In this document: one piece after another, positions 37,989 through 41,329 of the stretch
Position numbering within the stretch: position 1 is the first letter of the stretch
Layout: each line of letters begins with the position of its first letter
DNA from: Candidatus Aphodovivens avistercoris
GTDB taxonomy: Bacteria; Actinomycetota; Coriobacteriia; Coriobacteriales; Eggerthellaceae
Assembly: GCA_018710945.1 (NCBI GenBank)
Contig: DVIW01000004.1
Coordinates: 62,001 to 126,000, forward strand
Reading direction: 5' to 3'
DNA length: 64,000 bases
The notes under the pieces: model-generated
What the model was told of the DNA's origin: nothing
The model's database searches: none
Seen by the model: only the letters and a program-made list of their open reading frames with translations
Program-made: the position numbers and the translations under genes

Positions 37989-38894
37989 TCAGAACCGCCC
38001 CTGCTCCCGCTTCGCCACCTGCGCCAAGCAGGCGTACAGCGCTTCGGCATTGGCGGCGCATTCCTCCCGATAGACCAGGTAGAGCGGCAGCGTGAACCGC
38101 TCGTCAACATGGAACGGTAGCACCGCCGCGTCGGAGAGCCCCTCCTCCGCCCCGCTGCCGCGCGCCACCAGCACGATGCCCCCGTCGCGCAGGAACCCGT
38201 CGCGCTCGTCCAGGGATGCGCCGATCCACGAGATCCGCGGCTTCACGCCCGCCGCAACGCAACGCTCGGTGAGCAGGGACAACGCGCAGCGTCCATCCAA
38301 CGGCCGGGCGACGCGCTGCCCGTCGAGGTCGGTCAGGCGCAGCCACCTCTTGCCCGCCAAAGGATGCTGGCGCGCCATCGCGGCGCAAGGACGCACCCGC
38401 GTCACCCTGCGGCAGACGACGCCCGTCCGATGCACCTTCCCCAGCACGACAGCCGCGTCCAGCATGCCGTTCTCCACCGCCGACGCGCATGATTCGTTCG
38501 ACAGCTGGAGAAGCGAGAGGTGCAACGCGGGGTTGTCGCGCAAGAACGGCGCAAGGTCGTCGGCGCAGATGAGCCTCCCGCGATGCGGCGCCTCCGTCAG
38601 CGCGAGCCGCAGGCTTCCCGACGCCTTGCGGCGCATCGCGTAGCCGCTGACGAAGGCTGCAAGGTCGTCCAGGCCGTCGCGAAGCTCTTCGGCTTGCTCG
38701 TCGAGCGCGCGGGCGAACTCCGTCGGCGCCATGGCCCGGCCCGTTCTCTCGAACAGCGGAAGGCCCAACTCCCGCTCAAGGCCGATCAGCGCCTTCGACA
38801 CCGCCTGGGGCGTGACGTACAGGACGCGCGCGGCGGCCGCATAACTGCCTTCGGCGATGACCGCATGGAGGTAGTTCAACTGGGCCAGCTGCAC
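37989..38894 (-). CDS. LysR-family transcriptional regulator
   Basis: The product is 301 aa. The winged HTH at the N-terminus reads LNYLHAVIAEGSYAAAARVL, then TPQAVSKALIGLERELGLPL, followed by a linker helix and a substrate-binding domain (PHRGRLICADDLAPFLRDNP). It is divergent from the radical SAM gene, and the intergenic region carries a LysR-like palindrome, so that gene is its likely target. GGAGCGGG precedes the start. Confidence 0.92.
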   Translation of the reverse strand: MQLAQLNYLHAVIAEGSYAAAARVLYVTPQAVSKALIGLERELGLPLFERTGRAMAPTEFARALDEQAEELRDGLDDLAAFVSGYAMRRKASGSLRLALTEAPHRGRLICADDLAPFLRDNPALHLSLLQLSNESCASAVENGMLDAAVVLGKVHRTGVVCRRVTRVRPCAAMARQHPLAGKRWLRLTDLDGQRVARPLDGRCALSLLTERCVAAGVKPRISWIGASLDERDGFLRDGGIVLVARGSGAEEGLSDAAVLPFHVDERFTLPLYLVYREECAANAEALYACLAQVAKREQGRF

Positions 38895-38912: not shown

Positions 38913-38956
38913 GAATCAATGTTTATCGGTGACGAATCAATGATAATCGTTGATTC
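38913..38956. promoter_or_regulatory. Probable LysR operator
   Basis: GAATCAATGATAATCGTTGATTC (38934-38956) reads as GAATCAA, nine bases, TTGATTC, a T-N11-A-type palindrome. A direct copy of GAATCAATG lies 21 bp away (38913-38921), two helical turns on the side of the lysR gene. This is the usual layout of an autoregulated LysR site. Confidence 0.65.
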
Positions 38957-39049: not shown

Positions 39050-39086
39050 GACAACTTGCGGTTGTTGATGGCAACCGCAAGTTGTC
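39050..39086 (+). promoter_or_regulatory. 15-bp perfect hairpin in the leader of the radical SAM gene
   Basis: GACAACTTGCGGTTG (39050-39064) pairs perfectly with 39072-39086 around a 7-nt loop, 68 bp before the chosen start codon. There is no T-run, so it may be an operator, an mRNA stabiliser or part of an attenuator. Confidence 0.6.
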
Positions 39087-39154: not shown

Positions 39155-40381
39155 ATGCGGTTCGGAACTTCCGTAGAGCTGTTCTCCGTGCGCGGCGTGC
39201 CGATGGCGGGCAACGCGGAGACGGGATGCGTCGTAGGGCTCACCCCTTCGGGCGCTGCGCTGTGCCGCCTCATTGCCGAGGGCAACATCGCCGAAGACCA
39301 AGCCCGCTCCGCCGAGCCAGATCTGATCGAAGCGCTTGCAACGCGCGGGTTCTTCGAGGATCCGCACAGCGGACCGCGCCTCTCTTCGGCCTATCTGCAC
39401 GTCACGCAACGCTGCAACCTGGACTGCGCGGGATGCTACTCGCTCGATGCGCAGCGCAACCGCACTCCCGACCCCTCGTTCGAACAGGTGCGCTTCGCCA
39501 TCGACGGTCTGGCAAAATGCGGCGTGCGGAAGCTGGCCATCTCGGGCGGCGAGCCCTTCTTGCGCGACGACCTTCCCGACATCGTGCGCTACGCTGCAAG
39601 CGACGCAGGCATCGCGCAGGTAACGGTGCTCACCAACGGAACCTGCGTGTCGGCTGCGGCGGCGCACGCCCTGGCGCCGCACGTTGCCGCGGTGTCGGTG
39701 TCGCTGGACGGCTGCTCCCCCGACGATCCGGCCCCCATCCGCCGCGCCCAGCGCTTCGACACGATCATGGAAGCGGTCAGCACGCTGCAGGAGGCGGGCA
39801 TCCCCACGAGCCTGCTGCCCACCATCCACGCGCGCAACGTGGGCGACATTCCGCGCTACCGCGATCTGGCAGCCAGGCTTGGCGCAGGACTGAGCTTCAG
39901 TCTTCTGTCGTGCCCGGCAGGCGACGCCGATCTGGCCGACCTGCGGCCCACGGACGAAAGCCTGCACGAGCTGGCGCGCACCCTGCGCGAAAGCAACATT
40001 GCGCTGCACGACGCGCCCATAGGCGCCGGGCTGACGTACCGGCGCAGCTGCGAAGCGGGAACGCGCTTGGTGAGCATCGCCGCCGATGGATCGGTCTACC
40101 CTTGCCACCTGCTGCACGGGGCGCCTTTCTTCATGGGCAACGCGTTCGAGGAGCCTCTTCCCGCCATCGTGGAACGCCGAGCCGGGCTTCCTTCTGAAAC
40201 GCTCGACCCGCGCGGTTTCGAGGAATGCGGCGACTGCACGTACCGCCCCTTCTGCGGGGGCGGCTGCCGAGCCCGCGCCATCAACGAGGGACGCGGCGCA
40301 ACCGCCCCCGACCCCTACTGCACATTGATGCGGACACACTACGCCGCATTGATGGATGACCTGTTGGAAAAGATCGGTTAG
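39155..40381 (+). CDS. Radical SAM/SPASM peptide-maturase-like enzyme
   Basis: The product is 408 aa. Residues 1-75 form a small N-terminal region of the size of a PqqD-like peptide-recognition domain (ETGCVVGLTPSGAALCRLIA). The radical SAM core has CNLDCAGC (Cys87, 91, 94) and SGGEPFL (GGE at 131-133). The C-terminal SPASM domain is rich in cysteines: SCEAG, VYPCHLL, ECGDCTYRPFCGGGC (Cys358, 361, 367, 371) and YCTLM (Cys389). SPASM enzymes with such N-termini modify ribosomal peptides or make cofactors. ATG 39155 has AAGGAGG upstream; an in-frame ATG at 39068 inside the hairpin is less likely. The 28-codon ORF 9 bp downstream is the candidate substrate. Confidence 0.88.
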   Translation: MRFGTSVELFSVRGVPMAGNAETGCVVGLTPSGAALCRLIAEGNIAEDQARSAEPDLIEALATRGFFEDPHSGPRLSSAYLHVTQRCNLDCAGCYSLDAQRNRTPDPSFEQVRFAIDGLAKCGVRKLAISGGEPFLRDDLPDIVRYAASDAGIAQVTVLTNGTCVSAAAAHALAPHVAAVSVSLDGCSPDDPAPIRRAQRFDTIMEAVSTLQEAGIPTSLLPTIHARNVGDIPRYRDLAARLGAGLSFSLLSCPAGDADLADLRPTDESLHELARTLRESNIALHDAPIGAGLTYRRSCEAGTRLVSIAADGSVYPCHLLHGAPFFMGNAFEEPLPAIVERRAGLPSETLDPRGFEECGDCTYRPFCGGGCRARAINEGRGATAPDPYCTLMRTHYAALMDDLLEKIG

Positions 40382-40390
40382 GAGGACATC

Positions 40391-40477
40391 ATGTTGTTCG
40401 TCAGCGAAATGGAGCCGAGAGGGGCTTGCCTTGATGTAGGAATTCCAAATGGAATCTGTATCTCGATCGGAATATAG
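40391..40477 (+). CDS. Candidate RiPP precursor peptide, 28 aa with two cysteines
   Basis: The ORF starts 9 bp after the radical SAM stop. The stop codon overlaps the ribosome binding site (TAGGAGGACATC then ATG), so translation is probably coupled. The product has a short acidic N-terminal part (MLFVSEMEPR) and a small-residue, Ile-rich C-terminal part containing Cys13 and Cys23. It ends in GIPNGICISIGI. This is too short for most gene callers. Small size, strong Shine-Dalgarno, position and cysteines fit a precursor of a thioether-type (sactipeptide or ranthipeptide-like) product. Proof of expression or modification is lacking. Confidence 0.6.
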   Translation: MLFVSEMEPRGACLDVGIPNGICISIGI

Positions 40478-40546: not shown

Positions 40547-41089
40547 ATGGAAGACGCAATTTCCATAAAAGAGATTGAGGCTTCCAAAGCCAAACTCAAG
40601 CAAATCGGATCAACGCTTCGCTTCCTTTTTCTCGTCCTGGCCGTCCTTGCCTTTATGGCTTGGTTGACGATCATTGCGTCAATCATATCGGCAGCGATTA
40701 AAGGGGTCGGAGGCTCAGGGGTAGACGATGGGCTGCGGGCAGGATTGGCCTCGCTCGTCATGCTGGTTCTCGCTCTTGCATTCCTCATTTTGTCGGGAAT
40801 GTTCGCAGACATCGCAAAGGGACGTTCACCTTTTGTGCCTAAGCAAGCAAAACGATTAAGGTTCGTCGCACTGTGCCTCTTTGTTCTCTTTTTGCTTGAC
40901 GTAGTGATTCCAGAAGGAACGAGTGTCATCAGATCTGGGCAATACGCTGACTTGCACGTAAGCGATGCCGACGAAACGATGATCGGGTTCAATCCGCTCA
41001 TCCTGTCCTGCTCGATATTCTTCTTCGCGCTTTCGTTCGTGTTCAAGTACGGCTCGCTGCTGCAGAGCCTTTCCGACGACACCGTGTAG
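40547..41089 (+). CDS. DUF2975-type membrane protein
   Basis: The product is 180 aa with four membrane helices (LRFLFLVLAVLAFMAWLTI, LASLVMLVLALAFLILSGMF, FVALCLFVLFLLDVV, ILSCSIFFFALSFVFKYG). The segment IAKGRSPFVPKQAKRLRFVA is typical of DUF2975 proteins. These are usually encoded with a small XRE regulator, as here (15 bp downstream). G+C is well below that of the surroundings. Its place after a possible bioactive peptide gene makes self-protection or signalling a reasonable but untested idea. The ribosome binding site is weak. Confidence 0.78.
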   Translation: MEDAISIKEIEASKAKLKQIGSTLRFLFLVLAVLAFMAWLTIIASIISAAIKGVGGSGVDDGLRAGLASLVMLVLALAFLILSGMFADIAKGRSPFVPKQAKRLRFVALCLFVLFLLDVVIPEGTSVIRSGQYADLHVSDADETMIGFNPLILSCSIFFFALSFVFKYGSLLQSLSDDTV

Positions 41090-41104: not shown

Positions 41105-41329
41105 ATGGCAATCGTCATCAACCTGGACAAACTGCTGGTGGACAGGAAGCTGTCGTCCATCGAGCTGGCAGAACGCATCGATCTGTCGGAGAACAACCTT
41201 TCGCGCATCAAGACGGGACGCATCAAAGCCATGCGCTTCTCCACCTTGAACGCCCTCTGCCGCGAACTCGGCTGCAAGCCGGGGGACATCCTCGACTACA
41301 TCCCCGACGAAGAGCCCGAAGCGGAATAG
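41105..41329 (+). CDS. XRE-family HTH regulator paired with the DUF2975 protein (YozG-like)
   Basis: The product is 74 aa: MAIVINLDKLLVDRKLSSIE, then LAERIDLSENNLSRIKTGRI and LCRELGCKPGDILDYIPDEE. This is the compact Cro-like regulator type that accompanies DUF2975 genes. It lies 15 bp after that gene and is probably co-transcribed. Confidence 0.9.
   Translation: MAIVINLDKLLVDRKLSSIELAERIDLSENNLSRIKTGRIKAMRFSTLNALCRELGCKPGDILDYIPDEEPEAE

Follow-up and report, generated by a model that had tools for sequence, protein, structure and literature searches.

A radical SAM/SPASM enzyme gene and the gene of a 28-residue peptide directly downstream of it form a conserved precursor–maturase pair in a window (the whole stretch of DNA that was analysed) of 64,000 nucleotides from Candidatus Aphodovivens avistercoris. 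The pairing, the operon it belongs to and the fold class of the enzyme are shown by the data presented below. The pair likely represents a new RiPP family centred on the Coriobacteriales, whose products are probably cyclised by thioether bonds; the modification itself is inferred, without mass, NMR or expression data. Because the bond type is untested, we class the pair as a new radical-SAM RiPP family and assign it neither to the sactipeptides nor to the ranthipeptides. The open-access literature which was searched contains no paper describing this enzyme–peptide pair, and its open-access scope makes the absence weak evidence. The sole mention of an Eggerthella RiPP in that literature concerns long Nif11-type precursors. 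The peptide resembles none of the sixteen motif names given to streptococcal RaS-RiPPs (PMC13361665).

The maturase and its coupled peptide

The maturase (408 aa) is encoded at positions 39155..40381 of the forward strand and scores above the cut-offs of both Pfam Radical_SAM and SPASM. It contains the CxxxCxxC motif (C87-C91-C94), a GGE motif and the complete seven-Cys SPASM pattern (C299, C317, C358, C361, C367, C371 and C389); all three radical SAM and all seven SPASM cysteines are invariant across the 72 orthologues. ATG 39155 is supported as the start by the orthologues, which open with MRF or MKF at the equivalent position, and an upstream-extended ORF of 466 aa was rejected on the same basis. 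No NCBIfam model reaches its own cut-off with this enzyme. The best scores are those of the mycofactocin maturase (TIGR03962: 112 bits, cut-off 265), NirJ2 and heme b synthase; the models of PqqE (TIGR02109: 75 bits, cut-off 381), the sactipeptide maturase StsB (96 bits, cut-off 625) and PapB (75.8 bits, cut-off 340) are likewise not met.

The AlphaFold model of the maturase has a mean pLDDT of 92.1 and a pTM of 0.91. In the structural ranking (Foldseek, VIA-align) CteB is the top solved structure (5why, 5wgg; Z 27.2), and the next neighbours include anSME, ChlB, SuiB, SkfB and PqqE. The alignment to CteB (5why_A) runs through model residues 5-405, with an rmsd of 7.5 over 373 residues. The closest solved neighbours of the enzyme are thus RiPP maturases, together with anSME. 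Residues 7-63 of this pLDDT>90 model are arranged as β-β-β-α-α-α (strands: 7-12, 15-20, 26-28; helices: 31-41, 47-53, 55-63). The β3-α3 order is the topology of PqqD/RRE domains. A fused RRE-like domain (about residues 5-65) at the N-terminus is supported by this topology and by the alignment through to CteB; the domain was not searched alone.

The peptide ORF (40391..40477, forward strand) is translated as MLFVSEMEPRGACLDVGIPNGICISIGI, with Cys13 and Cys23, and consists of a 12-residue N-terminal part and a core with two C-x3-G motifs. Nine nucleotides separate the enzyme stop TAG (40379-40381) from the peptide ATG at 40391. The ribosome-binding site AGGAGG (40380..40385, forward strand) overlaps that stop, the stop and the Shine-Dalgarno sequence both falling within TAGGAGG, and most orthologues share a AAAGGAGGTG-type site before the peptide. 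Ten peptides compared with the NCBIfam 20.0 precursor models gave no relevant match at E values up to 10, and neither NCBIfam nor Pfam has a family describing the peptide. ORFs for precursors of 21-29 residues are easily missed by gene callers, and no tested library model matches this one.

Most of this bears on an earlier, sequence-only reading of the window. It had described a 408-aa enzyme followed 9 bp on by a 28-codon ORF whose AGGAGG overlaps the enzyme stop, which held exactly; the motifs it had named (CxxxCxxC, GGE, a Cys-rich SPASM domain, and Cys13 and Cys23 of the peptide) held as well. The PqqD-like N-terminus it had invoked is supported by the high-confidence β3-α3 model and the full-length structural match to CteB. 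It had seen no match to sactipeptide, streptide, mycofactocin or SCIFF sequences, and no NCBIfam precursor model matches the peptide; we also agree that the ORF is short enough for annotation to miss.

Conservation and sequence pattern of the peptide

Conservation was assessed at 72 orthologous enzyme loci of the Coriobacteriales, and a matching peptide ORF lies beside the enzyme at 67 of them. The automatic scan, which accepted only ORFs that open with M[LIV]F and have a Cys with a Gly after it, found the peptide at 64 loci; direct reading of the remaining sequences added three, namely L088 (MLFHSDLDDFDVPSHSRCQHIGFGGVCVNVGY..., overlapping the enzyme stop and with a long tail), and L115 and L116 (GTG start, MQFICIPQDIVPCVQLGFGDAPCLIIGA). 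At the other five loci the peptide copy is frameshifted (L126), the peptide region is cut by contig ends (L083, L111) or the peptide is truly absent (L070 and L075, the only two such loci when the sequences were read). Where the gene order is the usual one, the peptide ATG lies -31 to +26 nt from the enzyme stop, with one exception. Seven loci have a permuted order (peptide, DUF2975-like, HTH, enzyme) in which peptide and cassette remain together; five of these seven peptides carry a C-terminal tail.

Selection was measured on 83 locus pairs chosen on enzyme identity (>=70%) only. The pooled pN is 0.24 and the pooled pS 0.68 (pN/pS 0.35). In distant pairs pS is near saturation, yet close pairs agree (pN and pS: L054/L058, 0.03 and 0.61; L060/L071, 0.05 and 0.60). 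The peptide is under purifying selection at the protein level, and its recurrence beside 67 of 72 enzymes, together with these values, is more than chance. The sequence-only reading had inferred a precursor–maturase pair and had named two outcomes that would refute it: orthologues without a conserved peptide, and a lack of protein-level selection on the ORF. Neither was met; the pair is supported by conservation, and the cyclic or thioether product it had also proposed stays inferred.

Concerning the taxonomic distribution, the enzyme is matched in 67 of the 398 Coriobacteriia genomes sampled, and all listed matches have E values of 8e-77 or better despite a limit of 1e-40: the family of orthologues has a sharp boundary. 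Among 396 genomes sampled from the phylum the enzyme is confined to the Coriobacteriales, except for one match at 1e-31.

The 65 scanned peptides comprise 42 with two cysteines and 23 of a single-Cys group, and their start MLF is near-invariant. All 42 two-Cys peptides follow the pattern C-x2-[IVL]-G...C-x3-G, with the cysteines 8-10 residues apart; the first Cys is residue 13 in 37 of them, and in 29 a single residue follows the last Gly. The single-Cys form (for example MLFEIEGRGGFCFTIAGITIGW) is shorter and belongs to one enzyme clade; one switch on the enzyme tree is enough to account for the two forms. All 23 peptides of this group have their last Cys at the eleventh residue from the C-terminal end (the Cys being counted); a hydrophobic residue stands at +3, and the Gly at +9 is the last residue but one. 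The most constant positions are +3 (Ile or Val) around Cys1 and +4 (Gly) around Cys2. No one ring rule fits all peptides, because the +3 residue of Cys2 is variable (among others I, V, P, L, F, H) and many single-Cys peptides have a residue other than Gly at +4. Within the single-Cys clade, the peptide of L118 and L122 (MLFESMNCACCLHIGRFHIGY) has three cysteines close together, the extra ones before the last; it may bear a different modification.

A first rival explanation bears on the chemistry: the system would be a RiPP system with a modification other than a thioether, for example C-C bond formation, epimerisation, or oxidation of the invariant Cys or of the terminal Ile-Gly-aromatic part. 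SPASM enzymes also form C-C or ether bonds or act as dehydrogenases (PMC8326336); in addition, the CteB-like fold leaves the chemistry unfixed, the second Cys is missing in 23 of the 65 peptides, and the C-terminus [IV]-G-[FIVY] is conserved. Against this, none of the 65 scanned peptides lacks Cys1, although a Cys with a following Gly was a condition of the scan, and the Cys of the single-Cys group lies at a fixed distance from the C-terminus, as expected of a thioether donor. We regard non-thioether chemistry as unlikely and retain the thioether reading.

Operon neighbours and relatives beyond the Coriobacteriales

The usual cassette is led by the peptide, followed by a DUF2975-like membrane protein and an HTH_26 regulator (66-67 of 72 loci). 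In the window the DUF2975-like protein (180 aa) is encoded at 40547..41089 of the forward strand, and our own HMM finds it at 66 of 72 loci. Pfam DUF2975 matches several orthologues at E values of 4e-6 to 1e-2, one of them above the cut-off, and gives no match in the source genome at E 1e-3; the window protein is recognised only via its orthologues. The HTH_26 (Cro/C1-type) regulator (74 aa; 41105..41329, forward strand; Pfam HTH_26, E 1.8e-22) is present at 67 of 72 loci. Both L070 and L075 lack the DUF2975-like gene as well as the peptide and keep the HTH gene. At L090 there are two tandem MLF peptides, and an ABC ATPase, a permease and a CPBP (Rce1-like) protease replace the DUF2975/HTH cassette downstream of the enzyme. 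The joint absence at L070 and L075 and the replacement at L090 suggest that the DUF2975-like protein serves the peptide. No dedicated protease or exporter is seen in the usual Coriobacteriales operon.

Upstream of the enzyme, a divergent LysR-type regulator (37989..38894, reverse strand; Pfam HTH_1 and LysR_substrate) is found at 23 of 72 loci; with roughly one orthologous locus in three having it, it is accessory. An imperfect palindrome lies by its start (38913-38956). A perfect 15-bp inverted repeat, GACAACTTGCGGTTG/CAACCGCAAGTTGTC (39050..39086, no strand assigned; RNA fold z-score -5.5), might be an operator or an mRNA hairpin; a conserved element of either kind was rejected, the palindrome having no counterpart in most orthologues. 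The scan for sigma-70 promoters and terminators found none.

Profile searches of Clostridia and wider Bacillota genomes gave three full-length relatives (L160, L176 and L177; E 1e-102 to 5e-109); these labels rest on the lineage of the centre locus L049 (Lachnospiraceae). The peptide of L160 is MLFRSKKALAPGCISVGPFGVCISYGKNW, and L176 has a single-Cys relative. Beside its one maturase L177 carries three different tandem peptides with the same C-x2-I-G...C-x3-G core (for example MLIVKSNKRKAGCIYIGAPLIGCKTIGSDIRGIRI), 200-630 nt upstream of the radical SAM match. At each of the three loci there are genes of an ABC exporter and a CPBP protease, to which L160 adds a histidine kinase; no DUF2975/HTH cassette was seen in them. 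A diverged relative is found on a Streptococcus salivarius plasmid (L155, NZ_CP018188.1, 604-8837), where the radical SAM gene is split by ISSag10; its cluster contains a small Cys peptide with GCVSVGALVSVSIG, a CPBP protease, ABC genes and a LytTR gene. A lnu(C) resistance gene is predicted beside the insertion. By analogy, the contexts of the Bacillota relatives and of L155 resemble bacteriocin-type clusters. A separate Bacillota SPASM family (L178-L183; E about 1e-75 to the profile) has no such peptide within 3 kb at the six loci read; several of these carry CPBP and ABC genes. A phage origin was rejected, as IMG/VR matches reach only 20-36% identity, and so was a plasmid origin, plasmids having yielded only the diverged, IS-interrupted S. 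salivarius gene.

The genomic context bears on two further rivals. The short ORF could be a regulatory leader (attenuator or uORF) of the DUF2975-HTH genes and not a substrate of the enzyme, and in either gene order the DUF2975-like gene does follow it immediately. This is all but excluded by the conservation at the amino-acid level with fixed Cys/Gly spacing, by conservation in Bacillota where the enzyme is present and no DUF2975/HTH cassette is seen, and by the three peptide copies at L177 and two at L090. Alternatively, the peptide could be the precursor of an intracellular small redox cofactor or signal, like PQQ or mycofactocin, to which HTH_26 and DUF2975 respond. The top NCBIfam score is that of the mycofactocin maturase model (112 bits, below its cut-off of 265), the precursor and PqqA are of similarly small size, and the usual operon has no exporter. 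No PQQ or mycofactocin companion genes were recognised beside the loci, however, and the relatives bear ABC exporters and CPBP proteases. MftA ends in Val-Tyr and PqqA has a Glu/Tyr pair; the core has neither. The cofactor reading is very unlikely, and a precursor–maturase pair for a modified peptide remains preferred. The sequence-only reading had overlooked the two cassette genes that follow the peptide (DUF2975-like and HTH_26). It had likewise missed the clade of single-Cys variants, and the Bacillota relatives whose neighbours are ABC and CPBP genes.

Proposed product and comparison with known systems

Leader binding, thioether bond type, ring positions, processing, export and a function as bacteriocin or signal are all inferred. 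The N-terminal dozen residues (MLF...) would probably bind the RRE-like domain, and the maturase would most likely link the sulfur of each Cys to the conserved Ile/Val at +3 or the Gly at +4, a distance of 3-4 residues towards the C-terminus. The product would have small, un-nested thioether rings, as in streptosactin, and single-Cys members would have one ring. Removal of the leader would give a short hydrophobic cyclic peptide acting at or across the membrane. The DUF2975-like protein would be its partner there, for immunity or sensing, and regulation of the operon would fall to the HTH_26 protein. The C-x3-G motifs are compatible with a bond from Cys sulfur to an α-carbon, which was not observed; any bond to Gly could only be an α-thioether because Gly has no β-carbon. 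The acceptor residue is undecided by the sequences, and a nested ring arrangement is also conceivable. In the window peptide the candidate acceptors are Gly17 and Gly27 (+4) or Val16 and Ile26 (+3), and nested rings would join Cys13 to Gly27 and Cys23 to Gly17. Co-modelling of enzyme and peptide, which the sequence-only reading had proposed, left the peptide unplaced: in a fused AlphaFold chain (from L080, with Gly in place of the stop and the native 45-aa linker) the enzyme is modelled well and the peptide has pLDDT under 50 except at residues 458-463.

A bolder, tentative reading takes the DUF2975-like and HTH_26 proteins as a receptor/regulator or immunity pair for a cyclic peptide made by a radical SAM enzyme, and the single-Cys members (C-x8-G, penultimate Gly) as having a macrocycle of another kind, possibly of ten residues, that enzymes of this one family also make. 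If true, this would place the widespread DUF2975/HTH_26 gene pairs in a functional context for the first time. The uncharacterised DUF2975 family in any case gains a concrete partner. As carriers include Eggerthella (E. sinensis DSM 16107, locus L037, has the peptide MLFYSEAEPRTICPVIGWGDICIAPGF), the peptide may be a common product of gut bacteria from which few natural products are known, perhaps a local antibiotic or signal. The precursor is short enough for whole synthesis, which makes substrate, ring positions and the switch between one and two cysteines directly testable.

Mycofactocin (MftA/MftC) and PQQ (PqqA/PqqE) share with the new system a very short precursor and a related SPASM maturase. 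They differ in usually having a separate RRE protein (MftB, PqqD) where the new maturase has a fused RRE-like domain, and the new system has no recognised cofactor pathway genes and a different core. The Skf operon consists of SkfA, SkfB and SkfC with an ABC transporter. The Bacillota relatives share with it the combination of a precursor, a radical SAM enzyme, a CPBP protease and an ABC transporter, and SkfB is a structural neighbour; the precursor sequence is unrelated, and the Coriobacteriales operon has DUF2975/HTH_26 instead. The ranthipeptides CteA/CteB (SCIFF) and freyrasin (PapA/PapB) resemble it in Cys thioethers made by a SPASM enzyme, CteB, with its N-terminal RRE, being the closest structure; freyrasin is a precedent for Cys-Asp β-thioethers (PMC8172795, PMC8326336). 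Unlike SCIFF and PapA, the new peptides have no six-Cys precursor, C-x3-D repeats or Asp acceptors; they have one or two core cysteines, and the +4 residue of the two-Cys group is Gly. Streptosactin (GggA/GggB), a type II sactipeptide of the streptococcal GGG RaS-RiPPs, belongs to another enzyme family (the StsB model gives 96 bits, cut-off 625) and has Rgg/SHP regulation and a dedicated protease, whereas the Coriobacteriales system has DUF2975-like and HTH_26 proteins and no GGG-type core. Its un-nested sactionine rings (Cys25-Ser28 and Cys31-Gly34) are a precedent for small un-nested α-thioethers from Cys to a downstream (+3) residue, one of them to Gly (PMC8172795). The two systems are alike in a short two-Cys precursor with a SPASM enzyme, and in an un-nested motif with the acceptor (in the new peptides, the putative one) a few residues C-terminal of each Cys and Gly among the acceptors.
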